Positions 5,377 through 35,223 of a DNA stretch of 55,083 nt are shown in pieces. Origin of the DNA: an uncultured Lachnospiraceae bacterium (GTDB taxonomy: Bacteria > Bacillota > Clostridia > Lachnospirales > Lachnospiraceae); the NCBI GenBank assembly GCA_947564645.1, contig CANOCU010000022.1, positions 1-55,083 on the forward strand. The letters are read 5' to 3'. How positions within the stretch are numbered: position 1 is the stretch's first letter; each line of letters opens with the position of its first letter. The notes beneath the pieces were generated by a model. The model made no database searches, was not told where the DNA came from, and saw only the letters and a list, made by a program, of their open reading frames with translations. Position numbers and translations under genes: made by a program.

Positions 5377-6204
5377 TTATCCCTTCACGGCGCCGGCCAT
5401 CATGCCTTTGATCAGCTTATCCTGCCCAAATGCGAAGGCAATGGCCATGGGAAGGACTGACAATACCAAAACCGCAAAAAGCATAGGCACATTACTTCCG
5501 TACTGGCTCTTATAATTCCAGAGGGCGAGCGGCAGCGTTCGCGTATTGGGTGATTGTGTGAGCACCAGTGCGAAGCCAAATTCATTCCACATCGATATCA
5601 TGTCATAGATTGCCACGGTGATGATACCGGCTTTGGAGAGAGGCGTGACGATGGACAGGAAGAATCTGAAGTGTCCGCAGCCGTCGATCCAGGCAGATTC
5701 CTCGAGTTCGATCGGGATTTCTTTCATAAAGTTTGTCAGAATGAAGATTGTGATCGGCAGATTAAAGGCGACATAGGGACCGACAAGAGCTGCGATCGTA
5801 TCGTACAGGCCGATCTTCCTTGTCAGGAGATAGATCGGGATGAGCGCTACGTGGATGGAGATCGCCATACTAGCGACTACCAGCATAAAGAGTAATTGCA
5901 CCCACCGCAGGCGGATACGGGAAAAGGCATAGGAAGCGCACAGGGCGATGCCGAGCAGGATGAGCAGTGAAACGACGGCTACGACGATACTGTTCTTAAA
6001 ATAGCTGAAGATGCCGTCCGTGACTACTTTCACGTAATTGGAGATCTTAAATTCTTCCGGGATGGTAAAAAACCCGTTTCTCCCATAATCCTGTGAGGAT
6101 TTCAGAGAATTAATGATCATCATGTAGAAAGGCAGCAGAGAGAGCGCCAGAAAAAGGGCGGCGTAGACTCCGATTAAGATTTTGACAGTGTACTTTTTGA
6201 GCAT
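5377..6204 (-). CDS. Carbohydrate ABC transporter permease (MalG/UgpE type)
   Basis: A 275-residue inner-membrane subunit of a sugar ABC importer with about six transmembrane helices. The EAA loop that docks the ATPase reads ESAWIDGCGHFRFF near residue 185. The C-terminus ends in KGMMAGAVKG, typical of MalG-type permeases. It starts 6 nt after the preceding permease gene and is the last gene of a leftward operon with the glycyl radical enzyme. No ATP-binding subunit is encoded nearby, so a shared MsmX-type ATPase elsewhere is expected. The matching binding protein is probably the divergent lipoprotein gene at 10619. Confidence 0.9.
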   Translation of the reverse strand: MLKKYTVKILIGVYAALFLALSLLPFYMMIINSLKSSQDYGRNGFFTIPEEFKISNYVKVVTDGIFSYFKNSIVVAVVSLLILLGIALCASYAFSRIRLRWVQLLFMLVVASMAISIHVALIPIYLLTRKIGLYDTIAALVGPYVAFNLPITIFILTNFMKEIPIELEESAWIDGCGHFRFFLSIVTPLSKAGIITVAIYDMISMWNEFGFALVLTQSPNTRTLPLALWNYKSQYGSNVPMLFAVLVLSVLPMAIAFAFGQDKLIKGMMAGAVKG

Positions 6205-6210
6205 GATCAG

Positions 6211-7095
6211 TTATTCCTCCTTTGCGTCGCGGTTGATCAGATATTGGAATAGATAGGTGAAAGTGGTAATGATTAAAAACATGCCTACGGCGACCGTGGC
6301 GCCGTATCCCATCTGCCTGGACTTGAAGGTCAGACGGTACATATAAGTAGCCATCAGATCGGACGAGTAATTGGGTCCGCCCTCTGTCATGATGTAGACC
6401 AGGTCGAAGTATTTCAATGAACCGATCAGAGACAGCGTGCAGGCAGTCTTGATGGAATTTTTCAGTAAGGGCAGCGCAATGCTGAAAAAGTACTGTCTCA
6501 GATTGGCGCTGTCAATCACTGCAGCCTCGTAAAGCTCCTGGGGCAGTCCGCTGAATGCAGCCAGGTAAAATACCATATAATACGGAACGGCAGTCCAGCA
6601 GATCACAGAGAACACGGCCAGAAGGGATGTGTGCGGATTCCCCAGTACATCTACGGTTCCGCCGCCAAACAGTCTGGAGACCGTTGTAAAGATGCCGTTT
6701 CGCGGCGTATAGAGGAAGGAGAACAATAAACCAACGGCGGTGGTGGAAAACAGGCTGGGCAGATAGTAGATTACCTTGAGAATGCCGGATTTTCTGCCCA
6801 TGCGGTCAAGCATAAAGGCCAATGTGACGGCCAGAGGCATCTGTACAATAATAGAAAGAACCGCGATCAATATGTTATGCAGGGCAGCGGTAAAGAAGTA
6901 CTTATCATGAAGCAGGGTTTTCCAGTTCTGAAGACCGACGTTAATTTTGTTGGGACTGATCCCGTTCCAATCCAGCGTACTTAAATGAAAAACATCTACA
7001 ACAGGATAGAAAATATAAACGATTATAAAAAAGAATGCGGGCATTAGGAAGAGCGCCGCAGTCATATTCAGTTTCGGGTTTCCTCTTTTTTGCAT
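6211..7095 (-). CDS. Sugar ABC transporter permease (MalF/UgpA type)
   Basis: The partner membrane subunit of the same importer, 294 residues, with six predicted helices and an EAA loop EAAVIDSANLRQYF near residue 205. Two adjacent ATG codons (ATGATG) overlap the stop of the activase gene. AGGAGG is 3 nt from the first and 6 nt from the second, so I chose the second. The overlap implies translational coupling with the activase. The protein ends with NRDAKEE, an ordinary cytoplasmic tail. Substrate cannot be read from the permease; the catabolic genes point to a sugar, sugar acid or deoxysugar derivative. Confidence 0.9.
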   Translation of the reverse strand: MQKRGNPKLNMTAALFLMPAFFFIIVYIFYPVVDVFHLSTLDWNGISPNKINVGLQNWKTLLHDKYFFTAALHNILIAVLSIIVQMPLAVTLAFMLDRMGRKSGILKVIYYLPSLFSTTAVGLLFSFLYTPRNGIFTTVSRLFGGGTVDVLGNPHTSLLAVFSVICWTAVPYYMVFYLAAFSGLPQELYEAAVIDSANLRQYFFSIALPLLKNSIKTACTLSLIGSLKYFDLVYIMTEGGPNYSSDLMATYMYRLTFKSRQMGYGATVAVGMFLIITTFTYLFQYLINRDAKEE

Positions 7096-8033
7096 CATAT
7101 ACCTCCTGATAGGGTGACGGTTCTTGAACCGTCACGGAATAACACTTTGACAGTATCAAAACAGGCTGCAAGCCGGATCAGGCTTTCCCGGGTCGGCGGA
7201 TGAAGGGCGTCAAGCGCCGCATGTTCTCTGGACAGACTGTCGTATTTCTTAAGGCCATATTCATGATAGGGCATAAGTTCCAGATACAGCGGATGTAAGA
7301 TGCCGCTGATCCGGGTATTCAGCATGTGCATTACCGCTTCGCTGTCATTTACACCGGGAATGACCGGGACTCTGATCACGTATGGAAGGCCGCTTTGTTC
7401 CAGGATCCTGAAATTTTGAAGGATCAGTTCGTTGGAGACACCGGTTGCCGCTTTGTGCATTTCGGGATCCGGGTGCTTAATGTCTGCCAGAATTAGATCC
7501 GTAACGGGCAGTACGGTACTCAGAGATTCCCAAGGTACGTTCAGCGCAGTCTCAATGGCGGTGTGGATCCTCTGTTCCTGCAGGATCGTAAAGAACCGAT
7601 GTACAAAGGCAGGCTGCAGCAGAGGTTCGCCTCCGGAGACGGTGACGCCGCCTCCGGAATGCATAAAGAACGCTCTGTCGCGGAGGACAATTCCGGCAAG
7701 TTCTTCGGGGGTTATGCTTTCTCCGGTCCTGACCAGACTGCCGGAAGGGCAGTTTAGCGCGCATTTGCCGCATTTCGTGCACGGAGCGCGGTGAAAATCA
7801 TGCGTGCGGCTGTCAGGGTCTATTCTGTGACAATGCCGGTCACAGACTTCCTGACATCTGCCGCATAGAATGCAGCGGTCAACGAAAAACTGAATCTCCG
7901 GTTCTGGCAAAAGAGATTCCGGATTATGGCACCAGAAGCAGTGCATACTGCAGCCCTTGAAAAACACGGTAGTGCGGATGCCCGGGCCGTCATGCAGCGA
8001 CATCCGTTGTATATCAAAAATCGTTCCGGTCAT
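7095..8033 (-). CDS. Glycyl-radical enzyme activase (radical SAM)
   Basis: A 312-residue PflA-type activase. It reductively cleaves S-adenosylmethionine and abstracts hydrogen from the glycyl residue of its partner enzyme. The radical SAM cluster motif is CSMHCFWC near residue 29. It is followed by a two-cluster ferredoxin insert with CILCGRCQEVC and CTKCGKCALNC, a layout common to activases of non-pyruvate-formate-lyase glycyl radical enzymes. SGGEPLLQ (residues about 133-140) is the SAM-binding GGE motif. It lies 51 nt downstream of the glycyl radical enzyme gene, its obvious substrate, and overlaps the next permease gene. Start supported by GGAGG, although the spacing (about 13 nt) is long. 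Confidence 0.95.
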   Translation of the reverse strand: MTGTIFDIQRMSLHDGPGIRTTVFFKGCSMHCFWCHNPESLLPEPEIQFFVDRCILCGRCQEVCDRHCHRIDPDSRTHDFHRAPCTKCGKCALNCPSGSLVRTGESITPEELAGIVLRDRAFFMHSGGGVTVSGGEPLLQPAFVHRFFTILQEQRIHTAIETALNVPWESLSTVLPVTDLILADIKHPDPEMHKAATGVSNELILQNFRILEQSGLPYVIRVPVIPGVNDSEAVMHMLNTRISGILHPLYLELMPYHEYGLKKYDSLSREHAALDALHPPTRESLIRLAACFDTVKVLFRDGSRTVTLSGGI

Positions 8034-8084
8034 AATTATGTCTGTACCTCCATGCCGCCAATACCTGTAAAAAGGGGTGGCGCG

Positions 8085-10298
8085 TTATTTTGCCGTGTGA
8101 CGGCATCTGCTTATGATGTCATCCTGTACGCTCCTGTCCAGATCGACAAAATGAGCGGAAAAGCCGCCGACTCTGACGATCAGGTGCAGATAATCATTGG
8201 GCCGCTCCTGGGCTTTTACCAGTGTCTGTGGATCGATGGAGGAATTGCCCTGGAACATTTGTCCGCCCAGCGCGAGGAAGGTGCTAATGAAATTTTTCAT
8301 CAGTTCCTCGTTGATCCAGCTTTCGTCGAAATCCCACATGGAACTGCCGCCTCCGGTGAAGCGGTGCATCGGCATTTTGCAGTTGGAGAGGATCGCGGCG
8401 GTGGCGCCTTTTGTCATGGAACTTCCTGCCGGTGTGGTGCCATGGGAGGCCGGTGTGTGGGCATGACACCCGTCTGCGGTGGCGCCCAGATGCTGTGCGC
8501 AGAGGCCGGCCCATACGAAGGTAAAAATAACCGGCTTCACACAGCCGCCGAGATGATTTTCGTAACTTTCATAAATGCCGCAGATATCATGGAAAAATCC
8601 GGCGGCAAAAGCGTCCGCTTCGTCATGATCCTGTCCGTACTTCGGATAAGCTCTCAGCTGTAGCCGTAAGGCTTCCTGATCCTGATAGTCGCTTTTTAAA
8701 GCCCGGACCAATTCCCCGGCCGAACAGATCTTATCATCGAAAACAGCCTTCTTGACGGCGAACAGGGAATCCGCAGCCATCCCAAGGCCTACCGGAGCGG
8801 TTCCGTAGTCGTGATAACGGGTTCCGCCTTCATGCATGTTTTTCCCGCGGATCATACAGTCGTTGAGCAGACTGGAAGCATAATAGGTGGGACGATATTT
8901 TGCGCTGGCCTTGCTCCACCGGTCGATACAGTCGAAGTACTGGTGCAGGATCCGTCCGGTCTCGGAAAGAAAATCCGCATAATACGCTTCAAAGGAGCTG
9001 AAATTCTCCAGGCCCTGATAATGGACTGTGTCGTAGGTTTTATGGTTTACGAGGCAGTAATTGTGAGTGATGCTGAGTTCCACAAACTTGGGTATATTGT
9101 GCCAGCCGGAGAGAAGCATATCGCTGTTGGCCTGTGAGTTGGAAACTTCCATGCAGCCGTTGGTGGTGTAAGATAACGCTTCCTCATAAGGTACGCCCCG
9201 GTATTCCAGGGAAGCGGCAATGGCCCTGTCGTTCAGGATCTGGCCTCTGTTTTTGCCTGCCATAAGGTAATGAGCCGCAAATTCAATATATTCCTGCGGC
9301 GGATTGGCGGGCATTTTCAGATAGACCAACAGGCAGGTGATATCAAGCTGCAGCGCCGCCTGTGCAAACAGGTAAGTCAGGGGAGAGACGGCAGGTTCTC
9401 CGTTGGGATGACTTCCTCCCAGACATACGGTATCATTCATTTCTTCGTTCAGGCGGATCCTGCGATCCATCTGCAGAAGCAGATGTCCGCACAGATCAAA
9501 AGCTTCCTGCATGGTGATCTTCTGCTCTTTCAGATCTTTCTCCAGATAAGGCCATAAATAATAGTCGAGCCATCCCGGCCCGTAGGTGCCGCTGGCTTCC
9601 TGTGTAACGGTCATATACACCATATTGACGGATTGCACTGCTTCGCGAAAACTTTCGGTAGGATAGCGGGGGACCTTGCGACAGATTTCGGCAAGATCTG
9701 TCATACCCTTACGCTCCAGTTCCTGCACATAGCGCTCGTTGTATCTGATCAGGGAGTCGATCACGATGTTGAGTCCCTGATAGAACTGACGCTTCTTCTC
9801 ATCCTTCGTGCGGGAAAGCATTCGGGTGGACAGGTCACGGATCCCCTGCCAGCCGAGGCGAAGCACTTTCTGGAAACTGTGGGATTCGTGGCCGTTCCAG
9901 AAAGCGTCTCCATGCAGGCCGGCCTCCAGGAAATCACCTCTGACTTCCGGACAGGTATCATGGATCGACTCCAACAGTTCCTGGTAAGCCAGATGATATA
10001 GATAGGAAGGATCTTCCAGAGTCTTTCTTGGATGCTGCCCCCGATCCCCGTCCGGATCGAAGACGCGAAGGTTGTATCGTCCGATCACCACATCGTCATC
10101 GTCCACTTCGACTACCTGATGATCAAATACATAAGCGGTAGTTCTGGCGGTTCTTTCCCATAAGGGAAGATCTGTGTATAGTTCTTCATATGCGTACCTG
10201 CCGTTTGTAAACAGTGTCTGTGCGGTTTCCTTTTCACATTGCAGCCGAATACTCTGTTCCTTTTGCAGGACATGTTCTGACAGTTTCCTGTTGGTCAT
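8085..10298 (-). CDS. Glycyl radical enzyme, dehydratase/lyase type, substrate unknown
   Basis: A 737-residue glycyl radical enzyme. The radical-bearing loop is RVGGFSAHFVDL with Gly712, and the catalytic thiyl cysteine is Cys382 in TTNGCMEVSN. Only a single cysteine is present there, unlike the adjacent pair of pyruvate formate-lyase, and it is followed by Glu384 as in the Cys-x-Glu of diol dehydratases, choline lyase and relatives. These usually read GCVE; Met in the middle is unusual. No microcompartment shell genes or encapsulation extension are seen, and the protein is shorter than BMC-linked homologs. It heads the leftward operon (enzyme, activase, two permeases) and is divergent from the dehydratase/aldolase operon, suggesting shared regulation. 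Possible reactions include dehydration of a diol such as 1,2-propanediol or cleavage of a sugar-derived ether or diol; sequence alone does not decide. Confidence 0.9.
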   Translation of the reverse strand: MTNRKLSEHVLQKEQSIRLQCEKETAQTLFTNGRYAYEELYTDLPLWERTARTTAYVFDHQVVEVDDDDVVIGRYNLRVFDPDGDRGQHPRKTLEDPSYLYHLAYQELLESIHDTCPEVRGDFLEAGLHGDAFWNGHESHSFQKVLRLGWQGIRDLSTRMLSRTKDEKKRQFYQGLNIVIDSLIRYNERYVQELERKGMTDLAEICRKVPRYPTESFREAVQSVNMVYMTVTQEASGTYGPGWLDYYLWPYLEKDLKEQKITMQEAFDLCGHLLLQMDRRIRLNEEMNDTVCLGGSHPNGEPAVSPLTYLFAQAALQLDITCLLVYLKMPANPPQEYIEFAAHYLMAGKNRGQILNDRAIAASLEYRGVPYEEALSYTTNGCMEVSNSQANSDMLLSGWHNIPKFVELSITHNYCLVNHKTYDTVHYQGLENFSSFEAYYADFLSETGRILHQYFDCIDRWSKASAKYRPTYYASSLLNDCMIRGKNMHEGGTRYHDYGTAPVGLGMAADSLFAVKKAVFDDKICSAGELVRALKSDYQDQEALRLQLRAYPKYGQDHDEADAFAAGFFHDICGIYESYENHLGGCVKPVIFTFVWAGLCAQHLGATADGCHAHTPASHGTTPAGSSMTKGATAAILSNCKMPMHRFTGGGSSMWDFDESWINEELMKNFISTFLALGGQMFQGNSSIDPQTLVKAQERPNDYLHLIVRVGGFSAHFVDLDRSVQDDIISRCRHTAK

Positions 10299-10338
10299 TG
10301 GTTTTCCTCCTCGCTTTGTCTTGTTAACTTTGCTTTTG

Positions 10339-10348
10339 TGATATATCA
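10339..10348. promoter_or_regulatory. Perfect 10-bp palindrome, candidate GntR operator
   Basis: TGATATATCA is a perfect palindrome placed just downstream of the -10 box of the leftward promoter, between the promoter and the glycyl radical enzyme start. Near-identical copies sit at 10503, 10536 and 12118, all at promoters of this regulon. A repressor bound here would block transcription of the leftward operon. The local GntR/FCD regulator (12184) is the natural candidate. Confidence 0.5.
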
Positions 10349-10361
10349 GAATATGTATTAA

Positions 10362-10390
10362 AATATACCATACGGAAAATAAAAAAGCAA
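10362..10390 (-). promoter_or_regulatory. Promoter of the glycyl radical enzyme operon
   Basis: On the minus strand TTGCTT (10385-10390) and TATATT (10362-10367) are spaced by 17 bp, about 65 bp upstream of the glycyl radical enzyme start. The region is AT-rich, so chance matches are more likely than elsewhere, but position and nearby palindrome agree. Confidence 0.5.
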
Positions 10391-10502
10391 CAATGTTTTT
10401 ATGAATGTGATATGTAAAATGGAAAATAATGTGAAAATACTGGAAAATATGGAAAAATTTATATCATAATCAGGAGAAGAAGATGTGGTTTGAATGTATT
10501 TG

Positions 10503-10545
10503 TGATATATTATAAAATAAAAAATATGTTGATAGTGATATATTA
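10503..10545. promoter_or_regulatory. Two operator-like TGATATATTA copies
   Basis: TGATATATTA occurs at 10503-10512 and again at 10536-10545, 33 bp apart start to start (about three helical turns). The second copy lies inside the spacer of the predicted rightward promoter, an ideal position for repression. Each differs from the perfect palindrome at 10339 by one base. Confidence 0.5.
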
Positions 10546-10557
10546 ATGTGTTATGAA
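10529..10557 (+). promoter_or_regulatory. Promoter of the binding-protein gene
   Basis: TTGATA (10529-10534) and TATGAA (10552-10557) are spaced by 17 bp, about 60 bp upstream of the lipoprotein start. An operator-like TGATATATTA fills the spacer. Confidence 0.5.
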
Positions 10558-10618
10558 TAGAAGCATAACAATTCAATTTGGGCCTGAGAGACGGCCAACT
10601 TAAGAAAAGGAGAGGAAT

Positions 10619-11983
10619 ATGGAAAAAGGCAAAGTACAAAAAATTATTGCAGGGTTACTTGGCGGGTTGATGGCAATCTCACTCGTGGGATGCGGATCGG
10701 GAGGAGGAAGCGCCGGCGCTGAGAGTACAGATGCGGGAGCGGTACAGAATACCCCGGAAGGCCAGGAAGAAGAACGCAGCGGCGCTGCGGAAGAGGAAGT
10801 AAAGGAGATTACGCTGTGGGAGATCCAGACGGAAGAACCCATGAGAGAGATATTTGCCGATAGTATTGCCAGATTCGAGGCGGATCATCCGGGTTATAAG
10901 ATTAATGATGTCTGCATGGGCAGTGAAGATTATAAGCAGAAGATCGCGATCGCCCTTGGCTCCAATACGGCGCCGGATATTTTTGTTACATGGACCGGAG
11001 GCGGCATGAAGGAATATATTGAAGCCGGCTGCATTACCGATCTGACAGACTTTATGAATCAGGATGATTATAAGGATTATTTCATGGATGCGGCTGTTGC
11101 ACAGACGGTGGAGGACGGGAAGATGTGGGCGGTGCCGGTGGAGAACTGTTCGATCGCGGCGATCTTCTATAATAAGGCATTGTTCGAGCGCTATAATATT
11201 GCGGTACCGAAGACTCTGGAGGAGCTTGAGAAAGTCTGCGATACCTTCCTGGAGAATGGCATTTCACCTTTTGCCCTGCCGAATAAGACCAAGTATTTCG
11301 CGTCCATGTACTATATGTACCTGGTAGACCGTCAGGCGGGTCCGGAACTTTTTGAGAGTGCGGCAAACGGTGGTGACAGGACGTTTGAGGACGAAGTGTT
11401 TACCTGGGCGGATAACAAGATGCAGGAGTGGGCACAGAAGGGGTATTTCGGAGAAGGATATAACGGTCTTGACGGAGAGACCGGCATTCACCGCACCATG
11501 TTCTATAACGAGGAATGTGCGATGCTTCTGGACGGCAGCTGGTGCGTATCCACATTTTATAATGATCAGCCTGACATTCTCGGCGATATCGGTGTGTTCC
11601 CGTTCCCGTCTGTCGAAGGCGGTAAAGGGGATCCCGGCAACCTGGTAGGCACGCTGGGAGATACGTTCTACTGTATCAGTTCCGAGGCGGAGGACAAGGA
11701 GATCTGTTTCGAGGCGATCAAATATCTGATCGATGATACGGCTGTGGCAAAGAGGATCGCAGCGGGCAGAATCCCACCTACGAAGAACGCGACGGCAGAG
11801 AACGAGATCAGTGAAGAACTTATGAAGCTTTTGCAGGAAGCGAAGAGCATCCAGCTCTGGTACGATCAGTATCTTCCCAGCGATGCCGCAGAGATTCATA
11901 AGGACAGTATGCAGGCTCTTGTAGGGCTTTCCATGACGCCGGAAGAATATAATAAAGCGATGATTGATGCGGTAAATAAATAG
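10619..11983 (+). CDS. Sugar ABC transporter substrate-binding lipoprotein
   Basis: A 454-residue family 1 extracellular solute-binding protein. The N-terminus is a lipoprotein signal with lipobox LVGC (Cys about 25), followed by a Gly/Ser/Ala-rich and acidic linker. The mature part opens with KEITLWEIQTEEPM, the first strand of this fold, and has ALGSNTAPDIFVTW and ECAMLLDGSWCVS segments typical of CUT1 sugar-binding proteins. AGGAGAGG lies just before the ATG. It is the first gene of the rightward operon and would deliver ligand to the permeases at 5377-7095 on the opposite strand. The hairpin after it probably reduces read-through into the catabolic genes. Confidence 0.95.
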   Translation: MEKGKVQKIIAGLLGGLMAISLVGCGSGGGSAGAESTDAGAVQNTPEGQEEERSGAAEEEVKEITLWEIQTEEPMREIFADSIARFEADHPGYKINDVCMGSEDYKQKIAIALGSNTAPDIFVTWTGGGMKEYIEAGCITDLTDFMNQDDYKDYFMDAAVAQTVEDGKMWAVPVENCSIAAIFYNKALFERYNIAVPKTLEELEKVCDTFLENGISPFALPNKTKYFASMYYMYLVDRQAGPELFESAANGGDRTFEDEVFTWADNKMQEWAQKGYFGEGYNGLDGETGIHRTMFYNEECAMLLDGSWCVSTFYNDQPDILGDIGVFPFPSVEGGKGDPGNLVGTLGDTFYCISSEAEDKEICFEAIKYLIDDTAVAKRIAAGRIPPTKNATAENEISEELMKLLQEAKSIQLWYDQYLPSDAAEIHKDSMQALVGLSMTPEEYNKAMIDAVNK

Positions 11984-12016
11984 AAGATAGACTTAGTTGT
12001 AATTGTATTAATATAT

Positions 12017-12054
12017 CAGGGCGGTGTAAAGTACTGCCGCCCTGTTGGCCTTTT
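12017..12054 (+). terminator. Hairpin after the binding-protein gene
   Basis: CAGGGCGG (12017-12024) pairs with CCGCCCTG (12037-12044) around a 12-nt loop, followed by a moderately T-rich TTGGCCTTTT. It lies 33 nt after the stop. Such structures behind binding-protein genes often let that gene be expressed more strongly than the downstream genes. Confidence 0.6.
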
Positions 12055-12117
12055 CGTTGTAAATGCGGTCTTTTTATAACATGACAGCATAATACTTTCC
12101 AAATGACATGGATAATA

Positions 12118-12127
12118 TGATATATTA
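12118..12127. promoter_or_regulatory. Operator-like TGATATATTA before the GntR gene
   Basis: A fourth copy of the operator-like 10-mer, about 57 bp upstream of the GntR-type regulator start and overlapping a plausible -10 region. It is consistent with autoregulation of the regulator and control of the downstream catabolic genes. Confidence 0.45.
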
Positions 12128-12183
12128 AAAACAAAATGCTGTAAGATAAAAAATATCACAAAACGCTATGAGGAGGCAGAAGC

Positions 12184-12831
12184 ATGAAACAACAGAAGGA
12201 AAGCTTAAAGGAGATCATTTACAGGGATTTAAAGGAAAAGATCATTTTCTGCGAGTATCTTCCGGGTACGCCGATTTCGGAGGAGGAGATCGGCAGGGAG
12301 TATAATGTGAGCAGAACGCCGGTGCGGGAGGCGATCCTGCAGTTGGCACGGGAAGATTATATTACGATTGCGGCAAGGAAATCGACCAGAGTTTCCAAGA
12401 TCTCTTATCAGGAAATGAATGAGATCATTGAGGCCCGGCTGTTGACGGAACCCTATATTTTGCGGTGTCAGGAGAAACCGTTAACGGACGATGTGAAGGA
12501 GAAGCTTGAAATATTAAGGGTGGGCTTTGAAGAGGTTTCCCTGTGTGACGAGAAGAGCCTGAAGCAGTTTTTGAAGATGGATTATGAGTTTCACAGCCTG
12601 TTGGTAAATCTGAGCCATAACCACCTGCTCATTCAGTTCTGTCAGGATATTCTGGAGAGATCGACCAGACAGTGGTATCTGATGTGTATCAGAATGGAAG
12701 GCCGCCTGTCTGTGGCGAAGGATGAGCATAAGCAGATCATTGATCATCTTTTACAAGGTGATTACGGTAACGCATCGAAGAACCTTGAACAGCACATCAA
12801 AGCGTTTTACGATCTGGTCTATTTCAATTAA
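12184..12831 (+). CDS. GntR family regulator, FadR/FCD subfamily
   Basis: A 215-residue regulator. Residues 8-70 form the GntR winged helix (LKEKIIFCEYLPGTPISEEE followed by YNVSRTPVREAILQL). Residues 80-210 form the all-helical FCD effector domain; DYEFHSLLV and DEHKQIIDHL carry the acidic and His residues that in FCD proteins bind a metal and organic-acid ligands. Such regulators usually sense the pathway substrate or an intermediate such as a sugar acid. It has AGGAGG upstream, an operator-like palindrome in its leader, and sits 24 nt before the esterase-dehydratase gene, so it is the likely local regulator. Confidence 0.9.
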   Translation: MKQQKESLKEIIYRDLKEKIIFCEYLPGTPISEEEIGREYNVSRTPVREAILQLAREDYITIAARKSTRVSKISYQEMNEIIEARLLTEPYILRCQEKPLTDDVKEKLEILRVGFEEVSLCDEKSLKQFLKMDYEFHSLLVNLSHNHLLIQFCQDILERSTRQWYLMCIRMEGRLSVAKDEHKQIIDHLLQGDYGNASKNLEQHIKAFYDLVYFN

Positions 12832-12855
12832 CTGCCGGCAGAGAGGACGGACTGC

Positions 12856-15435
12856 ATGAATCTTTTTACAATTAACGTTATGTCGAATGCCTTACATAAG
12901 CGGACGACGGTTAATGTCTTATGTCCGCAGGAGGCGGCCAGGGGCGTGGAATTGCCGACACTGACGCTGCTTCACGGGATGACCGATGATCAGAGCGGAT
13001 GGATCCGTCATACGCTGGCGGAGGAATATGCCGGGGAGACAGGTACGTGTCTGGTGATTCCGAATGCGGACTTGAGCTTTTATACCGATATGGCATATGG
13101 CGGAGCATATCTTATATTTTTGGCGGAAGAGCTGCCCTGTTTCCTGCGAAATTATTTTCCGATTGCCGAAGGAAAACAGCGTAATTATGTGGCGGGAAAT
13201 TCCATGGGAGGATATGGCGCATTTCTGCTCGCCATGCGCTATCCGCAGCAGTATCGGGCAGCATTTTCTCTCTCTGGTCCGATGAAGATAGCGTGGATCC
13301 ATCGCATATTGGCAGATGAAAGTCTGGCCAGGCTCTATGAAGCAGGTGAGGAAGACAGCCTGAGGGCATATGTGGAACGACTTGGCAGGCAGGAGCAGAT
13401 TCCGTCAAAACTGGTGTACAGCCTGTTGGAGTCCGGGGATCTTACGAGGATCTTCCGGGGTATGTTTGGCGAGGAAGGCATTATTCTGGACGGAAGTGAT
13501 GTGGATCTGATGGATCTGGTTCGGCGCAGGGCTTTTCGGGAAAGTGCTGTGGAACTGTATGCATACTGCGGAGAGCAGGATTACCATTACGAGAGTAACC
13601 GGTTGTTTGAAGATATGGCAGCCGCAATGGGGATATCGTACAGATTGCAGACCGGGGCGGGAGGTCATGACTGGAAATATTGGAATCGTCAGCTGCCACA
13701 GGTTTTTGACATTATTGCGGGGAGACAGAGATACCGGGATGGGAAGGGTGAGAAGATGAGACGAAGTGAAGAGATTCTGAAACGTCCGGAGTTCAATTTC
13801 AACAGGGCTGTCTACAAATCGATGGGGTTTTCGGATACGGATCTGGCGAAACCGATCATCGGCATTGCCAATACCTGGAGTGAGCTATGCCCGGGGAGCT
13901 ATAATCTGCGACAGTTGGCCGAACATGTGAAATACGGGATATATGCGGCAGGGGGAACGCCCGTGGAATTCGGGGTGACCGGAGCCTGTGACGGAACGGC
14001 GCAGGGAAACGAGGGGATGAAATATATTCTGCCTTCCAGAGAACTGATCGCGAATGACGTGGAGGTGATGGTACAGGCTCATCGGCTGGATGCGGTGGTT
14101 TTGATGGGTTCCTGCGATAAGATTGTGCCGGGATTGTTGATGGCGGCAGCAAGATTGAAGATTCCGGCGATCCTGCTGCCGGGCGGCCCCATGCTTGGCG
14201 GCAGTAAGTTCGACGGGCGAAGTTCGGATCTGACTTCTCTCTCAGAGGGAAACGGAATGCTGAAGGCGGGAAAAATTACGGAAGAAGAGTTGGAGAGCCT
14301 GGAAGATACATGCGGTCCCACGTGCGGTTCCTGCTCTTTCTATGGAACGGCCAATACCATGTGCGCACTGTCTGAGGCGTTGGGGATGACGCTTCCCGGG
14401 GGTGCTTTGATTCCGGCCGTATATGCGCAGAGAACAAGAATCGCTTATCGGACGGGAGAGAAGATCGTGGAACTGGTCAGAAAGAATATTACTGCCCGGG
14501 AGATCATAACTTCCGACGCTCTGGATAACGCGATCCGTGTTCTGAATGCCACCGGAGGGTCTACCAATGGGGCGCTGCACCTGCCGGCGATCGCGAGGGA
14601 GAACGGTATCTGTGGAAACGTGATGACGGATAAGCTTAAGAGGATCGGGATGACTACACCCCTGATCGTGAAAGTGAATCCGGCGTCACCCTACAATATG
14701 GAAGATTTCTACTTTGCAGGGGGAATCCCCCAGGTAATGCGGGAATTGAGACCTTTGCTCCATGGGGAGGCGATGACCGTTACCGGGAAGACGGTGGCGG
14801 AAAATATAGAGGAATATAAGGAAAAAGATGTGAACCGGAAGATCATCAGGACGTTGGAGGATCCCTTTTTGCAATTCGGCGGGATTGCGATCCTGGAAGG
14901 AAATCTCGCGCCTGACGGCTGTATTACCAAACCGTCTGCCATTGTGCCCGAAATGCATGTGTTTACGGGCAGGGCGAAGGTGTATGACGGCGAGGAGAGA
15001 GCGGAGACGGCGATCCTTGGGGGCGAGATCGTAGCCGGAGATGTAGTGGTGATCCGCTACGAGGGGCCGAAAGGCGGACCGGGGATGCGGGAGATGTTCA
15101 AAGCCATGAAGTATCTTTACGGAGTCGGGCTGGGAACTTCCACGGCGCTGATCACGGACGGACGCTTTTCCGGAACCAACAACGGCTGCTTCGTAGGGCA
15201 TATTTCGCCGGAGGCTGCACAAGGCGGTCCGATCGCACTTATCGAGAACGGCGACAGCATTACGATCGATATTCCGGCCGGAAAGATCACGCTGCATGTG
15301 GATGAGGAGACTCTGCACAGGAGGAGAGAAGCGCTGATCCTGCCGCCGCCGGTCGTGCGGGAGGGCTATCTGGGGCTGTATGCGCGATTTGCCTTGTCAG
15401 CGAGCGAGGGAGCGGTGATCGACTGGAACCAATAA
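12856..15435 (+). CDS. Esterase/lactonase-like domain fused to IlvD/Edd-type dehydratase
   Basis: An 859-residue two-domain protein. Residues 1-290 form an alpha/beta-hydrolase of the EstA/S-formylglutathione hydrolase type, with GNSMGG (Ser116) and plausible Asp242 and His271 (GGHDW) completing the triad, and LLHGMTDD as oxyanion region. From Met301 a complete IlvD/Edd dehydratase of 559 residues follows, with iron-sulfur ligand motifs GACDGT, GSCDKIVPG and TCGSCSFYGTANTM and the catalytic TDGRFSG serine loop. IlvD/Edd enzymes remove water from 2,3-dihydroxy acids to give 2-oxo-3-deoxy acids. There is no stop between the domains; a weak internal ribosome site (AGGGTGAG) precedes Met301, so a free dehydratase could also be made. 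Fusion to a hydrolase suggests consecutive steps, such as opening a sugar lactone and then dehydrating the aldonate. Valine biosynthesis is unlikely given the neighbours. Confidence 0.9.
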   Translation: MNLFTINVMSNALHKRTTVNVLCPQEAARGVELPTLTLLHGMTDDQSGWIRHTLAEEYAGETGTCLVIPNADLSFYTDMAYGGAYLIFLAEELPCFLRNYFPIAEGKQRNYVAGNSMGGYGAFLLAMRYPQQYRAAFSLSGPMKIAWIHRILADESLARLYEAGEEDSLRAYVERLGRQEQIPSKLVYSLLESGDLTRIFRGMFGEEGIILDGSDVDLMDLVRRRAFRESAVELYAYCGEQDYHYESNRLFEDMAAAMGISYRLQTGAGGHDWKYWNRQLPQVFDIIAGRQRYRDGKGEKMRRSEEILKRPEFNFNRAVYKSMGFSDTDLAKPIIGIANTWSELCPGSYNLRQLAEHVKYGIYAAGGTPVEFGVTGACDGTAQGNEGMKYILPSRELIANDVEVMVQAHRLDAVVLMGSCDKIVPGLLMAAARLKIPAILLPGGPMLGGSKFDGRSSDLTSLSEGNGMLKAGKITEEELESLEDTCGPTCGSCSFYGTANTMCALSEALGMTLPGGALIPAVYAQRTRIAYRTGEKIVELVRKNITAREIITSDALDNAIRVLNATGGSTNGALHLPAIARENGICGNVMTDKLKRIGMTTPLIVKVNPASPYNMEDFYFAGGIPQVMRELRPLLHGEAMTVTGKTVAENIEEYKEKDVNRKIIRTLEDPFLQFGGIAILEGNLAPDGCITKPSAIVPEMHVFTGRAKVYDGEERAETAILGGEIVAGDVVVIRYEGPKGGPGMREMFKAMKYLYGVGLGTSTALITDGRFSGTNNGCFVGHISPEAAQGGPIALIENGDSITIDIPAGKITLHVDEETLHRRREALILPPPVVREGYLGLYARFALSASEGAVIDWNQ

Positions 15436-15477
15436 CAAATAATCAAGGAAAAGAAAGAGATAAGGAGTTACATAGAT

Positions 15478-16278
15478 ATGGCATTTGATTTTACTGGTAA
15501 GACGGTTGGGGTCACGGGCGCAGCCGGAATTAATGGAATTGGTTTTGCAATCGCCAGGAAGTTTCTGCAGTACGGCGCAGCGGTGTTTATCTGTGATCTG
15601 GACGAGAAAGCACTTTCTGAGGCGGAGACAAAACTGCGGGAATACGGAACGGTAAAGGCATACAAGGTGGATGTATCAAACGGGCAGGCAGTATCCGGTC
15701 TGTTTAAAGAGGCGGTAAGGGACTTTGGGTACATTGATGTTTTCATCAGCAACGCGGGAATCTATCCGCAGATCATGGTATGCGATATGGCAGAGGAACA
15801 ATGGGATACGGTTATGGCTGTTAATCTGAAATCCGTCTTTCTCTGTGCCAGGGAATGCCGCAGGGTGATGGACAGGGGCGGCGTATTGATCAATGCATCT
15901 TCCTTTGCCGCTCTGCTTGGGTCTGCAGGCAGCGGCGCCTATGCGGCAAGCAAGGCGGCTGTCTATAATCTGACCAAAACGCTGGCGGCAGAGCTTGCGC
16001 CTTACCAAATTCGCACGGTCGGATATATTCCGGGCGTTATTGAGACGGGTATGACAAAGGAGGTGATCGAGAGCAGGGAGAAAGAGCTGACGGAGGCGAT
16101 CGCGCTTAAGCGGCTGGGTAAGTCGGATGACGTGGCGGATGCGGTGTGCTTCCTGGCATCCGATCAGGCGGCGTATATGACGGGCACCTTCCTTGAGATC
16201 AGCGGCGGTAAGCTTTGCGTACAGAATCCGGATTATGCCTGGAATCAGTATGGAAAGAACGCCTGCGGTACGGCCTAA
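15478..16278 (+). CDS. SDR family NAD(P)-dependent dehydrogenase
   Basis: A 266-residue classical short-chain dehydrogenase. The cofactor motif is [10 protein letters not shown] near residue 13, the structural motif SNAG near 90, and the active site has the SS pair and YAASK (Tyr and Lys). Asp40 in CDLDEKA suggests NAD(H) preference. Proteins of this type oxidise sugar hydroxyls, for example at C1 of fucose or rhamnose to give the lactone, or act on 2-oxo-3-deoxy acids. AAGGAG precedes the start. It lies between the dehydratase fusion and the aldehyde dehydrogenase in one operon, so it probably performs one oxidation of the same substrate. Its C-terminus ([15 protein letters not shown]) is longer than usual. 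Confidence 0.92.
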
Positions 16279-16310
16279 TGGCAGAACAAATGAGAAATAG
16301 GGGGATAAAA

Positions 16311-17216
16311 ATGGCGAAAATTGATGTTGCGATCATTGGGCCGGGCAATATCGGGTCTGATCTGATGTATAAGGTGATGCGCAGTTCATGCCTGAACATG
16401 AAGCTAATGACAGGTATCGTTTTGTCCGAAGGGATCAAACGCGCGGCGAAAATGGGAATTGAGACCAGCATAAACGGAATCGAAGCCGTTCTCGCGCAGG
16501 ATGATATCCGGATCGTTTTCGATGCGACGGGCGCAAAAGCGCATTTGGAACATGCGCCGCTTCTGCAAAAAGCGGGAAAAATTGCGATTGATATGACACC
16601 TGCCGCCGTGGGACCGTATGTGGTGCCCTGCGTCAACCTGGATGCCCTGTCACAGGAGATGAATTTCAATATGGTGACTTGCGGCGGGCAGGCGACCGTG
16701 CCGATCGCCTATGCGGTCAACCGTGTTGCAGACAGTTCCTATACGGAGATTGTTTCCTGTATCTCATCCAAAAGCGCCGGCCCCGGTACCAGGGCGAATA
16801 TCGATGAGTTTACGGAAACCACGGCCAAAGCGTTAGAGACGGTGGCGGGCGCCGACCGGGGAAAAGCGGTCATTATTTTGAATCCTGCCAATCCGCCTCT
16901 TTTGATGACAAACACGATCTATTCTATTGTCAAAAATCCCGATCAGGAGAGGATCAACAGGTCGGTCAGGGAGATGGTGGAAGAGGTTCAAAAGTATGTT
17001 CCGGGGTACAGACTCAGAACGCCGCCGATCTTTGACGGCAATAAGGTGACTGTTATTGTGGAAGTGGAGGGGGCGGGCGATTTCCTGCCGAAATATTCCG
17101 GGAATCTGGATATTATCAATGCGGCGGCCGTTCGGGTCGCGGAGAAGCTGGCGGTCGAAAGACTGATGAAGGAAAAAGGTTCGGACGCGATGTCTGCGGA
17201 GAAGGAGAAGGGATAA
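16311..17216 (+). CDS. dmpF: Acylating acetaldehyde/propanal dehydrogenase (DmpF type)
   Basis: A 301-residue CoA-acylating aldehyde dehydrogenase of the DmpF/BphJ/MhpF family. It converts acetaldehyde (or propanal) plus CoA and NAD to acyl-CoA. The N-terminus [11 protein letters not shown] is the NAD site, and the nucleophile is Cys124 in [30 protein letters not shown] and [12 protein letters not shown] are conserved family blocks. Family enzymes form a complex with a DmpG-type aldolase and receive the aldehyde through a tunnel, and the aldolase gene follows 11 nt downstream. Start chosen at 16311 because AGGGGGA lies just upstream; a 32-residue in-frame extension has no site and overlaps the SDR gene. 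Confidence 0.95.
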
Positions 17217-17227
17217 GAGGTAAGAGG

Positions 17228-18247
17228 ATGAAAAGGAGGATCAAACTGGTAGATGTGACCCTGCGCGACGGCAGTCATGCGGTGGGGCACAGCTTTACGA
17301 AGGAGCAGGTGATGCGTATCGCGGGAGAACTGGACAGATCAGGCGTGGAGATCATAGAAGTGACACACGGTGACGGTCTGGGAGGCTCTTCAGTCAATTA
17401 CGGGTTTTCTGCGGTAAGTGACATGGATTTGATCGAGGCTGCGGCGGGTGTGATCAGGGAGGCGAAGCTGGGTGCACTCCTGCTGCCGGGGATCGGTACG
17501 ATCAGAGATCTGGAAGAAGCGTATGAGCGGGGTGTACGTGTGCTTCGTGTGGCGACCCATGTCACGGAGGCCGATGTCGGGATCCAGCACATTCAGGCCG
17601 CCAAAAGAAAAGGCATGTGTGCAGTCGGGTTTCTGATGATGATCCATATGGCACGGCCGGAGAAAATCTTAGAACAGGCAAGGATCTTCGCGGATGCCGG
17701 AGCAGACTATATCAATCTGGCCGATTCGGCAGGTCACCTGGTGCCTGATGAGGTGCGGGAGCGGGTCTTAATCCTGACGGAACATTTAAATATTCCGGTA
17801 GGGTTTCATGCGCACAATAATCTGGGTCTGGCGGTGGCCAATTCCATAGCGGCCATAGAGGAGGGTGCCGTCTATATTGACGGCTCCTTAGGCGGATTGG
17901 GAGCCGGGGCAGGGAATACACAGATCGAGGTATTGCAGGCCGTGATACAGCGCTATGGATGGGAGAGCGGTGCGGACCTTGGATGTCTGCTTGAGGCGGA
18001 GAAAGAGGTAGTTCCTGTGATGCAGCGTCCGCAGGTGATCGATCCGGATTCGCTGATGCTTGGGTATTCGGGAGTATATTCCAGTTTTCTGCTTCATGCG
18101 AAGCGGGCTTCGCAGAAATTCGACGTCGATACAAAGGATATCCTGGTAGAATTGGGAAAACGTGGAATGGTAGGCGGACAGGAAGACATGATCGTGGATG
18201 TGGCCTACGAATTATCAAAAAGAAAAGGAGCAAGGAGATCAATATGA
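17228..18247 (+). CDS. dmpG: 4-hydroxy-2-oxovalerate aldolase-like enzyme (DmpG type)
   Basis: A 339-residue metal-dependent aldolase of the HMG-CoA lyase-like superfamily. It cleaves 4-hydroxy-2-oxo acids to pyruvate and an aldehyde. The catalytic loop is TLRDGSHAVGH (Arg13, Asp14, His17), the metal ligands are in GFHAHNN, and GDGLGGSS, LADSAG, DGSLGGLGAGAGN and the C-terminal GMVGGQEDMI dimer region with DmpF are all preserved. It follows DmpF closely and overlaps the alcohol dehydrogenase gene by four bases (ATGA). These genes are best known from aromatic meta-cleavage, yet no ring-cleavage genes are present. Here the substrate is more plausibly the 2-oxo-3-deoxy acid made by the neighbouring dehydratase. 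Confidence 0.93.
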   Translation: MKRRIKLVDVTLRDGSHAVGHSFTKEQVMRIAGELDRSGVEIIEVTHGDGLGGSSVNYGFSAVSDMDLIEAAAGVIREAKLGALLLPGIGTIRDLEEAYERGVRVLRVATHVTEADVGIQHIQAAKRKGMCAVGFLMMIHMARPEKILEQARIFADAGADYINLADSAGHLVPDEVRERVLILTEHLNIPVGFHAHNNLGLAVANSIAAIEEGAVYIDGSLGGLGAGAGNTQIEVLQAVIQRYGWESGADLGCLLEAEKEVVPVMQRPQVIDPDSLMLGYSGVYSSFLLHAKRASQKFDVDTKDILVELGKRGMVGGQEDMIVDVAYELSKRKGARRSI

Positions 18248-19425
18248 ATAATTTTACTTTTTACAGTCCGACTTATTTTGTATTTGGAAAAGAAGAAGAG
18301 AAGCGGGCGGGACATTATGTGAAGCGGTTTGGTGGAACGAAAGCGCTGGTGCATTACGGCGGTGGCAGCGTAGTGCGCTCCGGACTACTGGACCGGGTAA
18401 AAAAGTCGTTGGAAGATAGCGGGATTTCCTATGTAGAGCTGGGAGGAGTGAAACCGAATCCCAGAAGCGGGCTTGTTTATGAGGGGATTGATCTTTGCAG
18501 GAAAGAAAACGTAGATTTTGTGCTGGCAGTGGGTGGCGGCAGTGTCATCGACTCTTCCAAGGCGATCGCTGCCGGAACGGTATATGACGGAGATTTCTGG
18601 GATTTCTATCAGGGAAAGTCTGTGGAGAAAGCGCTTCCGGTGGGCACGATCCTTACCATTGCGGCGGCAGGCAGCGAGGGATCGCCGGATTCCGTTATCA
18701 CCAATGAGAACGGTATGTTTAAGAGAGGAGCCAGTGGGGAAGGATTCAGACCGACGTTCTCTGTTTTGAATCCGGAATTGACGCAGACACTTCCGGCTTA
18801 TCAGACGGCCTGTGGCATTACCGATATTATGGCGCATCTGTTTGAAAGGTATTTTACGACGACACAGGAGGTGGAAGTAACCGATCGCATGATCGAGGGG
18901 CTTCTGATGGCTATGGTACATGAAGGACCTCGTGTGATCGCCGATCCGGACAATTATGAGGCCAGGGCAAATATCATGTGGGCCGGCATGATGGCGCACA
19001 ATAATTCCTGTGGCGTCGGAAGAGTACAGGATTGGGCAAGCCATGATATAGAGCATGAATTATCGGCGCTCTATGATTGTGCCCACGGAGCAGGACTGGC
19101 GGTTGTGTTCCCGGCCTGGATGCGGTATGTTTATCGGAAAGACGTGATGCGGTTTGCGCAGGTGGCAGCAAGAGTCTGGGGGTGCCCGATGGACTTTGCC
19201 AATCCGGAGAATACGGCGCTTGCAGGGATCGATATGTTCCGGAAGTTCTTGCGGTCTATCGGTATGCCGACAACGCTTGGCGAGCTGGGGGCGAAGGAAG
19301 AGGATATCCGGCAGATGGCACATACGGCCTGCTTCGGGGATGCAAGGCAGGGAAGCATAGGAGGTTTTGTCAGACTGGAAGAGAAGGATGTGGCGGCGAT
19401 CCTGAAACTGGCGGCAGAAGGATGA
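18244..19425 (+). CDS. Iron-containing alcohol dehydrogenase (YqhD/BdhA type)
   Basis: A 393-residue group III metal-dependent alcohol dehydrogenase. GGGSVIDSSKAIA is the cofactor loop, and GGGSVVRSG near residue 40 is the NADPH-type signature of YqhD/BdhA aldehyde reductases. Metal ligands are visible in GITDIMAHLFE (Asp, His) and in SHDIEHELSALYDCAHGAG (two His). Such enzymes reduce short aldehydes, including acetaldehyde, propanal and lactaldehyde, to alcohols. As the last gene of the operon it would recycle reduced cofactor by reducing the aldehyde that the aldolase or the glycyl radical enzyme releases. A long hairpin follows. Confidence 0.93.
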   Translation: MNNFTFYSPTYFVFGKEEEKRAGHYVKRFGGTKALVHYGGGSVVRSGLLDRVKKSLEDSGISYVELGGVKPNPRSGLVYEGIDLCRKENVDFVLAVGGGSVIDSSKAIAAGTVYDGDFWDFYQGKSVEKALPVGTILTIAAAGSEGSPDSVITNENGMFKRGASGEGFRPTFSVLNPELTQTLPAYQTACGITDIMAHLFERYFTTTQEVEVTDRMIEGLLMAMVHEGPRVIADPDNYEARANIMWAGMMAHNNSCGVGRVQDWASHDIEHELSALYDCAHGAGLAVVFPAWMRYVYRKDVMRFAQVAARVWGCPMDFANPENTALAGIDMFRKFLRSIGMPTTLGELGAKEEDIRQMAHTACFGDARQGSIGGFVRLEEKDVAAILKLAAEG

Positions 19426-26694: not shown

Positions 26695-26769
26695 GCACAA
26701 AGCAGAACAAGAACTGATATAGGCATAAAGCAGGCATACCGGCAGGTGTGTCTGCTTTGGAAAGGAAGC

Positions 26770-27690: not shown

Positions 27691-27708
27691 GAGCAGGAGG
27701 GGCGAAAA

Positions 27709-31224: not shown

Positions 31225-31324
31225 ATGAATTGCAGTAAACGACATAATAAATTTCTGTTTCCGGCTCCGGCCAAAGTAAATTTCTAATGCCGTTAACAAT
31301 AACAAAATGAATAATGCAGAAAAC

Positions 31325-31365
31325 AAAGGTGTTTGGAGAATATTCCGAGCGCCTTTCTTTTTTTT
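31325..31365 (+). terminator. Leader terminator upstream of the ATP-grasp gene
   Basis: A 13-bp stem with three G-U pairs (31325-31337 with 31344-31356) is followed by T8 at 31358-31365. Because the promoter lies upstream and the gene start downstream, this is an attenuator rather than an end-of-gene terminator. A direct repeat TAAATTTCT lies earlier in the leader. Confidence 0.7.
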
Positions 31366-31420
31366 GCATGTGTCCGGGAATTTTCCGGATTCGTATGTTG
31401 AACAGGAATGGGAGAATACT

Positions 31421-33390: not shown

Positions 33391-33447
33391 AGGAAGAACC
33401 GTACTTTTCGTGGGAATTTGTGTCAGAGATGACATGGAGGTGCAGGT

Positions 33448-34254: not shown

Positions 34255-34268
34255 GAATGGAGATTACT

Positions 34269-35198: not shown

Positions 35199-35223
35199 AC
35201 GAGGGGACCCTGATGGAGGCAGT

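Follow-up and report, generated by a model that had tools for sequence, protein, structure and literature searches.

Through radical cleavage of C-O, C-N or C-S bonds, glycyl radical enzyme (GRE) eliminases open up compounds for use by anaerobes; to our knowledge, many GRE sequences have no known function. PMC7077986 gives the CXE motif as the mark of these eliminases and describes how, in most of them, its glutamate deprotonates the substrate hydroxyl to yield a ketyl radical, from which the neighbouring group then leaves. According to PMC12441222, and in agreement with PDB titles, the GREs YbiW and PflD convert anhydrohexitol phosphates to 1-deoxyfructose-6-phosphate, a methyl ketone. Here we analyse a GRE locus in a stretch of 55,083 nucleotides from an uncultured Lachnospiraceae bacterium of the gut (assembly GCA_947564645.1, contig CANOCU010000022.1), the whole of which is referred to as the window. 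The locus is a real, conserved and rare regulon around an uncharacterised GRE subfamily, best explained as a substrate-induced, anaerobic and kinase-free catabolic regulon.

The window GRE belongs to the eliminase class: both the pyruvate formate-lyase-like domain and the Gly-radical domain are matched, the Gly loop (RVGG at 709) and a Cys loop with the CXE motif (GCME at 381) are present, and the gene adjoins that of a dedicated radical SAM activase, which also occurs in the related loci L025-L028 (the L029 contig stops within the GRE). Residues G381, C382 and E384 are invariant in alignment A1 and His137 is in register with the His of other eliminases, so that His137, Cys382 and Glu384 are all kept; the equivalent His of HypD, H160, is essential, as stated in PMC7077986. 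The AlphaFold2 model of the protein (mean pLDDT 84.2) matches solved GRE eliminases at 20-25% identity with query TM scores of 0.80-0.88, and decarboxylases and succinate synthases rank after these, at 17-20% identity.

Comparison with characterized families revealed that the protein lies under the cut-off of all 11 NCBIfam families matched (264 against 678 for the subfamily model and 238 against 1000 for the best equivalog), as does a Treponema member for the families that it matched. In a tree of six subfamily members, four solved GREs and 15 other GREs from genomes, the six members (the window, the sister locus L025 and the Treponema loci L026-L029) form their own 100/100 group on a long stem, and glycerol dehydratase (1r8w), propanediol dehydratase (9rco) and L020 form a separate 100/99 group; the long row L017 joins the base of the window group unreliably, and L021, one of the 16 distant GREs aligned, was left out of alignment A1 and the tree. 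The Asp found in the solved glycerol and propanediol dehydratases compared (1r8w, 9rco and 5i2a, in the segment GWHD; HPSG lies outside this comparison) is Leu396 in the window, and Leu occupies the position in six of six subfamily members. We take this Asp to be Asp447 of glycerol dehydratase. Nor is the GRE of the HypD type, since it scores 231.7 bits with the HypD model NF043068 (cut-off 1100) and, in two alignments, HypD Asp278 falls on Gly237 or a gap and Asp339 on a gap, both residues being strictly conserved in HypD according to PMC7077986. As judged from sequence, the GRE represents a new subfamily outside the glycerol/propanediol dehydratases and HypD. Its members can be recognized by the motifs AFWNGHExH, QEASGT[YW]GPGW and NGCMExS, and the alignment suggests Arg469, Trp399 and Thr238 as candidate side chains of a pocket that might bind a carboxylate or lactone.

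This subfamily is known here from six copies in five genomes of two phyla, all of them draft assemblies or metagenome-assembled genomes (MAGs). Of 98 relatives, 11 contain a GRE match of some kind (E 1e-40), and the subfamily is found only in the window genome and in G051 (92% identity), the remaining matches being 25-31% identical to the window GRE; G051 and G098, which agree in contig number and positions, are apparently the same genome and are counted once. Only the window genome matches at 1e-90 in a draw of 391 genomes from the class, and three genomes match at 1e-100 in a draw of 390 from the Treponema order. Five loci were recovered from genome contigs by exact 8-residue peptides, a scan that reaches close kin only, while 115 plasmid records have a match to the window GRE, each below 60% identity and the best-ranked at 28%.

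Gene order in the related loci defines what belongs with the GRE. The window genome is a 4.15-Mb draft of 140 contigs and is of the same genus as G051, the apparent source of L025, which is colinear with the whole window locus at 77-97% protein identity (94% for the MalG-like permease). Three Treponema MAGs carry on one strand the order permease-permease-binding protein-GRE-permease-permease-IlvD-SDR-binding protein-activase (L026 begins inside the first permease), with two copies of the binding protein in each operon and an esterase adjoining it in two of the three; SDR stands for short-chain dehydrogenase/reductase. The GRE is the best conserved enzyme between the phyla, at 62-65% identity to the window against 43-57% for IlvD (56-57%), SDR (43-47%), activase (47-48%) and esterase, and the MalG-like permease is 57-61% identical in L026-L028. 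The SDR gene directly follows IlvD in L026-L029. DmpFG and the iron-containing alcohol dehydrogenase (Fe-ADH), both present in the window locus, are absent from the Treponema operons. Because these operons hold GRE, IlvD, SDR and transporter without DmpFG or Fe-ADH, the conserved core is the GRE with its activase, IlvD, SDR, a CUT1 transporter and usually the esterase, and DmpFG with Fe-ADH are a local exit module, specific to the locus as found in Lachnospiraceae. Since the core stays linked across two phyla, the linkage exceeds chance; the initial annotation had proposed that consistent unlinking of the two divergent arms in homologous loci would count against it, and GRE, IlvD and SDR were found to share one operon in Treponema. 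With these operons, the GRE rather than DmpFG becomes the centre of the finding.

Several features adjoin the Treponema loci. A second copy in Treponema MAG G099 (L029, 6733-11731) has an IclR-type gene followed by IlvD-SDR-GRE, adjoins clpP-clpX-lon, and ends with its contig within the GRE. Upstream of the GRE operon, L027 (1453-6336) encodes another binding protein with two permeases, together with a xylose-isomerase-like barrel protein and a dehydrogenase of the zinc type; the equivalent region is cut by contig ends in the other two Treponema loci. In three Treponema MAGs the GRE operon has as its neighbour a gene of the aconitase family, running in the opposite direction (L026 12211-14622, L109 2-2275 and L111 909-3500). 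As for a possible Treponema exit through 2-keto-3-deoxy-6-phosphogluconate aldolase, the family PF01081 occurs in all five genomes searched and is thus uninformative.

The initial annotation had regarded the two divergent arms of the window locus as one regulon, and the region between them bears this out. The motif GTGATATATYA occurs three times in the whole window, always inside the 320-bp divergent promoter, against 0.03 expected, although the motif was picked from this same promoter and the count alone hence overstates the case. The same promoter region of L025 (mean column identity of the alignment 84%) also contains three sites, and the retention of all three is a better argument for a regulon than the count. 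The whole genome (G000) has five exact copies and the sister six, three of each in this promoter; since the reversed motif, used as a control, has 3 matches in G000 and 5 in G098, a few chance copies per genome are expected, and the copies outside the divergent promoter are probably at chance level. They were rejected as regulon members: downstream of the G000 site at C32 lie a trigger-factor-like gene and that of a tRNA synthetase, and downstream of a G098 site at C30 lie open reading frames (ORFs) of like length, so that both are probably chance matches; the remaining sites gave no lead. The sites are predicted to be the operator of the GntR regulator, and their distribution supports a single regulon. 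A consensus scan counted 25 promoter and 17 terminator sites, where shuffled sequence gave 15.8 and 11.7, and is set aside here.

Table 1. Genes and promoter region of the window locus, with positions in the window and the profile matches or related evidence for each.
Feature	Position	Strand	Evidence
ABC sugar permease, MalG-like (CUT1 type)	5377..6204	-	PF00528 (BPD_transp_1) E 4.5e-15
ABC sugar permease, UgpA/MalF-like	6211..7098	-	PF00528 (BPD_transp_1) E 1.1e-15; kept in L025-L028
GRE activase, radical SAM with ferredoxin-like insert, CSMHCFWC	7095..8033	-	TIGR02494 310.9 bits, cut-off 174.35
Glycyl radical enzyme (GRE), 737 aa	8085..10298	-	PF02901 E 1.4e-96, PF01228 E 6.3e-14
Divergent promoter, 320 bp, three GTGATATATYA sites	10299..10618	.	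Candidate operators at 10338-10348, 10502-10512, 10535-10545
Sugar-binding lipoprotein (SBP_bac_1)	10619..11983	+	PF01547 E 1.4e-33
GntR/FCD regulator	12184..12831	+	PF00392 and PF07729; 97% identity to L025 copy
Joined ORF: esterase (~residues 1-290) and IlvD/EDD dehydratase (~299-859)	12856..15435	+	PF00756, PF00920, PF24877
SDR oxidoreductase	15478..16278	+	PF13561 E 4.1e-61
DmpF, acylating acetaldehyde dehydrogenase	ATG 16311..17216	+	TIGR03215 451.3 bits, cut-off 282.25
DmpG, 4-hydroxy-2-oxovalerate aldolase	17228..18247	+	TIGR03217 486 bits, cut-off 286
Fe-containing alcohol dehydrogenase (Fe-ADH), BdhA/YqhD group	18244..19425	+	PF00465 E 9.1e-41

The minus-strand arm runs left from 10298 and the plus-strand arm right from 10619 (Table 1), and most genes are closely spaced and preceded by a purine-rich ribosome site; the Fe-ADH start overlaps the stop of DmpG by 4 bases, and the activase overlaps the neighbouring permease. 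Pfam and NCBIfam scans located every gene named in the initial annotation at its place. Its statement that the locus lacks a sugar kinase and an aromatic ring-cleavage gene also holds, as no ABC ATPase, kinase, glycosidase or ring-cleavage enzyme was detected among the scanned locus proteins, and a kinase of the FGGY family is encoded at 44997-46307, ~25 kb from the locus. The gene content thus agrees with the proposed kinase-free layout ending in an aldolase, and makes a kinase-free route plausible. Scans of the window for tRNA and Rfam families gave no matches.

Elsewhere in the window, a second set of a solute-binding protein and two permeases is encoded at 25352-28602, its binding protein gene looking split (a 252-aa ORF with a weak match to the family, then another ORF). 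A putative peptide-modifying set lies at 31307-36162 (circularly permuted ATP-grasp, Alpha-E protein, transglutaminase and two AstE/AspA-like deacylases), and a GH123 family glycoside hydrolase (PF13320) at 39410-41170.

In the exit module of the window locus, DmpG and DmpF both pass their equivalog cut-offs as 4-hydroxy-2-oxovalerate aldolase and acetaldehyde dehydrogenase, and DmpG shares with 1nvm the segments LLLPGIG and GYxGVYSSFL of the active-site region; 4-hydroxy-2-oxovalerate is the natural guess for its substrate. No extradiol dioxygenase or fumarylacetoacetate (FAA)-type hydrolase was detected in a Pfam scan of 20 window proteins (336-24923), so that equivalog-level DmpFG stand here outside an aromatic setting, as had been suggested at the outset. 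A FAA-hydrolase neighbour is present at 16 of the 20 other DmpFG loci (14 of 18 in the Treponema order and two in Lachnospirales); two of the remaining four, L082 and L084, are short contigs, and G276 and G365 fall outside the count. Four further DmpFG neighbours were scanned as possible dioxygenases, three being catechol 2,3-dioxygenase-like and one ROK-like. L087, L090, L091, L099 and other loci of the Treponema order are apparent meta-cleavage clusters with FAA hydrolase and DmpFG and, where scanned, an alpha/beta hydrolase and a catechol 2,3-dioxygenase-like protein. At the DmpFG loci L094 and L085, no parallel sugar locus was recognized among the proteins scanned. In Treponema MAG G099, the neighbours of DmpFG at L050 (5040-8543) include an FGGY kinase and an ABC transporter of the Bmp type, with no FAA hydrolase among the eight that were scanned; this is possibly a second non-aromatic context of DmpFG.

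DmpG exceeds its cut-off in four of the 98 relatives, twice together with the GRE and twice with DmpFG beside FAA hydrolase; the co-occurrence with the GRE counts as one event because it concerns one locus in one genus. In the Treponema order 22 of 380 genomes have DmpG above the cut-off, including two of the three GRE-bearing MAGs, but this co-occurrence is confounded by the FAA-hydrolase loci and was dropped as support. The last gene of the module had been described as a YqhD-type alcohol dehydrogenase: the BdhA/YqhD group stands, whereas the best PDB match is 1vlj, an NADH-dependent butanol dehydrogenase (343.9 bits), with YqhD entries lower (1oj7, 243.1 bits).

The esterase-IlvD fusion seen in the initial annotation exists as a joined ORF in the window, but the two are separate ORFs in L025, with a stop and ~120 bp between them, and in Treponema L027 and L028 the esterase is a separate gene on the strand opposite to the IlvD operon. 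The joined frame still holds the IlvD ATG, preceded by a GA-rich stretch resembling a ribosome site. Because esterase and IlvD are separate in L025 and Treponema, the fusion is not conserved and probably reflects a local feature or an effect of assembly or stop loss; it was rejected as a functional clue. The window esterase contains the segments GNSMG, GEQD and GGHDW, which resemble an intact catalytic triad.

Clues to the substrate come from the binding protein, IlvD and SDR. Among solved structures, the binding protein is nearest to 4g68, 3vxb and 3zkk, the last labelled XOS binding protein and the first two binding xylo-oligosaccharides; these relatives point to xylo-oligosaccharides rather than deoxyhexoses. 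IlvD passes the dihydroxy-acid dehydratase model TIGR00110 (cut-off 618.15) in the window (652.5), L025 (653.3) and L027 (653.9), a type with which the PDB ranking also places it, and the window protein is not of the curated pentonate dehydratase type, being far under the cut-offs for L-arabinonate (454 against 882), D-xylonate (263 against 808) and phosphogluconate (266 against 708) dehydratases. These scores would be in keeping with a short acid that carries fewer hydroxyls, for instance 5-deoxypentonate. Every IlvD match in the three Treponema MAGs represented by L026-L028 is an operon copy, therefore the operon IlvD is not a spare from amino-acid synthesis. Among the best 25 of 229 families listed, the window SDR barely passes a broad 'glucose 1-dehydrogenase' subfamily (222.3 against 215), which the Treponema SDR fails (199.4), and it is far under the L-rhamnose dehydrogenase cut-off (155 against 400); the family score is uninformative on substrate.

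Taken together, these data favour a reading, to which we assign a probability of roughly 0.35, in which the GRE acts before the aldolase on a plant pentose, or its acylated, lactone or aldonate form, and removes the 5-hydroxyl on the way to 4-hydroxy-2-oxovalerate. The early position of the GRE is suggested because GRE, IlvD and SDR share one Treponema operon (and are adjacent in L029) without DmpFG or Fe-ADH; consecutive early steps would fit these operons better than a late diol dehydratase. Its chemistry is more tentative still: through radical C-O elimination the enzyme may strip C5 of its oxygen, in a pentose, pentonate or pentonolactone that carries no phosphate, which would feed DmpFG; an aldopentopyranose would offer the same ring CH2-O beside CHOH as the substrates of YbiW and PflD. 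In the predicted scheme, in which substrate, position of attack and order of steps are all provisional, the CUT1 transporter would take in the plant pentose or one of the above forms, and the thiyl radical of the GRE would abstract H from the C4 carbinol with departure of the C5 oxygen, so that a 5-deoxy-4-oxo acid or sugar results. Its ketone would be reduced by the SDR or else by the alcohol dehydrogenase, the esterase would open a lactone or remove an acyl group, and IlvD would dehydrate the 2,3-diol of 5-deoxypentonate to 4-hydroxy-2-oxovalerate. DmpG and DmpF would then cleave this acid to pyruvate and acetyl-CoA, the whole route proceeding without an ATP-consuming phosphorylation, and Fe-ADH would dispose of acetaldehyde as ethanol.

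A number of observations weigh against such early deoxygenation of a pentose. The top fold and sequence matches of the GRE are propanediol and glycerol dehydratases, although other GRE eliminases score nearly alike. Starting from a free pentose, the route would require an oxidation as well as a reduction, for which there is a single SDR; the window alcohol dehydrogenase could supply the second activity, and the Treponema operons contain no other dehydrogenase, the zinc-type enzyme being encoded in the cluster adjoining that of L027. G100 has GRE and IlvD with no DmpG above the cut-off, hence DmpG is not universal with the GRE, and the DmpFG of G101 (L051) adjoins FAA hydrolase, so that co-occurrence in Treponema may reflect an aromatic pathway. 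A lactonase role of the esterase is a guess, as its solved relatives in the PDB are carboxyl esterases. Binders of chitin oligosaccharides rank next after the xylo-oligosaccharide group among the binding-protein relatives. Finally, dihydroxy-acid dehydratases can accept sugar acids, which makes the argument from IlvD a weak one.

Doubtful, yet with no specific point against it, is a residual class in which the GRE would act by ring opening or deoxygenation on some other plant compound, cyclic or acylated (an anhydro-pentitol, a glycoside, a uronate-derived or a branched sugar). The products would reach IlvD in an unforeseen way, and DmpFG would handle a different 4-hydroxy-2-oxo acid, 4-hydroxy-2-oxohexanoate for example. 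All 50 structural matches listed stand at about the same distance from the GRE (17-25% identity), which makes its substrate unreadable from homology, and its motif blocks near the catalytic residues are not common to the 16 other GREs aligned, both of which leave room for such a substrate.

The strongest rival, which we consider unlikely, is a route of the Dahms type for a plain pentose, in which the GRE would dehydrate ethylene glycol. The SDR and esterase would make pentonate, IlvD would convert it to 2-keto-3-deoxypentonate, and DmpG would release pyruvate and glycolaldehyde, the latter passing through ethylene glycol (alcohol dehydrogenase) and acetaldehyde (GRE) to acetyl-CoA (DmpF). Every window gene is used in a textbook role, the net stoichiometry equals that of the early-acting GRE, xylo-oligosaccharides are indicated by the relatives of the binding protein, diol dehydratases head the PDB matches of the GRE, and the alcohol dehydrogenase is of the BdhA/YqhD group, YqhD being known to reduce glycolaldehyde. 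Against these points stand the position of the GRE outside the glycerol/propanediol dehydratase clade, with Leu396 replacing the Asp of three solved enzymes, the absence of aldolase and Fe-ADH from the Treponema operons, and the scores of IlvD far under the pentonate dehydratase cut-offs. DmpFG, moreover, channels the aldehyde straight to DmpF, which would bypass the reductase. Genes for the bacterial microcompartment (BMC) shell (PF00936) were found in none of the five genomes, with the control positive in E. coli and Synechococcus; this is a weak argument, all five being drafts and the clostridial glycerol dehydratase working without such a shell.

Two routes had been put forward in the initial annotation. 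One, now distinctly improbable, starts from a ready-made 5-deoxypentose such as 5-deoxyribose, which would yield 4-hydroxy-2-oxovalerate with the GRE unrelated to the route: its native DmpG substrate is in keeping with equivalog-level DmpF and DmpG and with an IlvD of the dihydroxy-acid dehydratase type, but it omits the enzyme best conserved between phyla, which in Treponema shares one operon with IlvD and SDR. The other, the six-carbon version of the Dahms-like route, led from fucose or rhamnose to pyruvate and lactaldehyde, and thence via 1,2-propanediol and propanal (the GRE product) to propionyl-CoA; it uses all genes, has propanediol dehydratases among the best PDB matches of the GRE and is in line with the shared promoter region and motif of the GRE and IlvD arms, but is very improbable, as clade and residue tests (Leu396) disfavour a 1,2-propanediol dehydratase, no BMC shell gene was found (a weak point), the SDR is far under the L-rhamnose dehydrogenase cut-off, the binding-protein relatives do not point to deoxyhexoses, and the Treponema operons, which neither version explains well, contain no aldolase, Fe-ADH or diol-forming reductase.

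Because gene order in two phyla ties the GRE to a dehydratase, a reductase and a sugar transporter, the set of substrates to be searched is small. If C5 deoxygenation by an early-acting GRE is true, it would link pentose uptake without a kinase to an aldolase pair known from aromatic degradation, and would carry hemicellulose pentoses to pyruvate and acetyl-CoA by an anaerobic entry that costs no ATP. The impression in the initial annotation that this gene combination is undescribed agrees with literature searches limited to open-access PMC papers, which listed no account of it.

Compared with known systems, the window locus shares equivalog DmpF and DmpG with aromatic meta-cleavage pathways, but is devoid of FAA hydrolase and extradiol dioxygenase. 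With the Dahms and Weimberg pathways it has in common an SDR, an IlvD-type dehydratase, a pyruvate aldolase and a kinase-free layout; it differs in the radical enzyme of its core, in an IlvD that is not of the xylonate or arabinonate type, and in the use of DmpG as aldolase, that of the Dahms and Weimberg pathways being of the dihydrodipicolinate synthase type. The GRE resembles the known eliminases (glycerol and 1,2-propanediol dehydratases, HypD, CutC, IseG/IslA and HPSG) in fold, CXE loop, His, Gly loop and neighbouring activase, yet it is only 20-25% identical to them, shorter, and placed in a long-stem clade of its own, and relative to glycerol dehydratase it carries Leu396 for Asp447 and Thr238 for Ser282. 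In its proposed chemistry it would resemble YbiW and PflD, which according to PMC12441222 are GREs of carbohydrate catabolism forming a 1-deoxy keto sugar, the type of reaction proposed here; these enzymes, ~20-22% identical to the window GRE, follow a phosphotransferase system and act on phosphorylated polyols, whereas the window locus combines an ABC transporter and no kinase with an exit through IlvD, SDR and aldolase.

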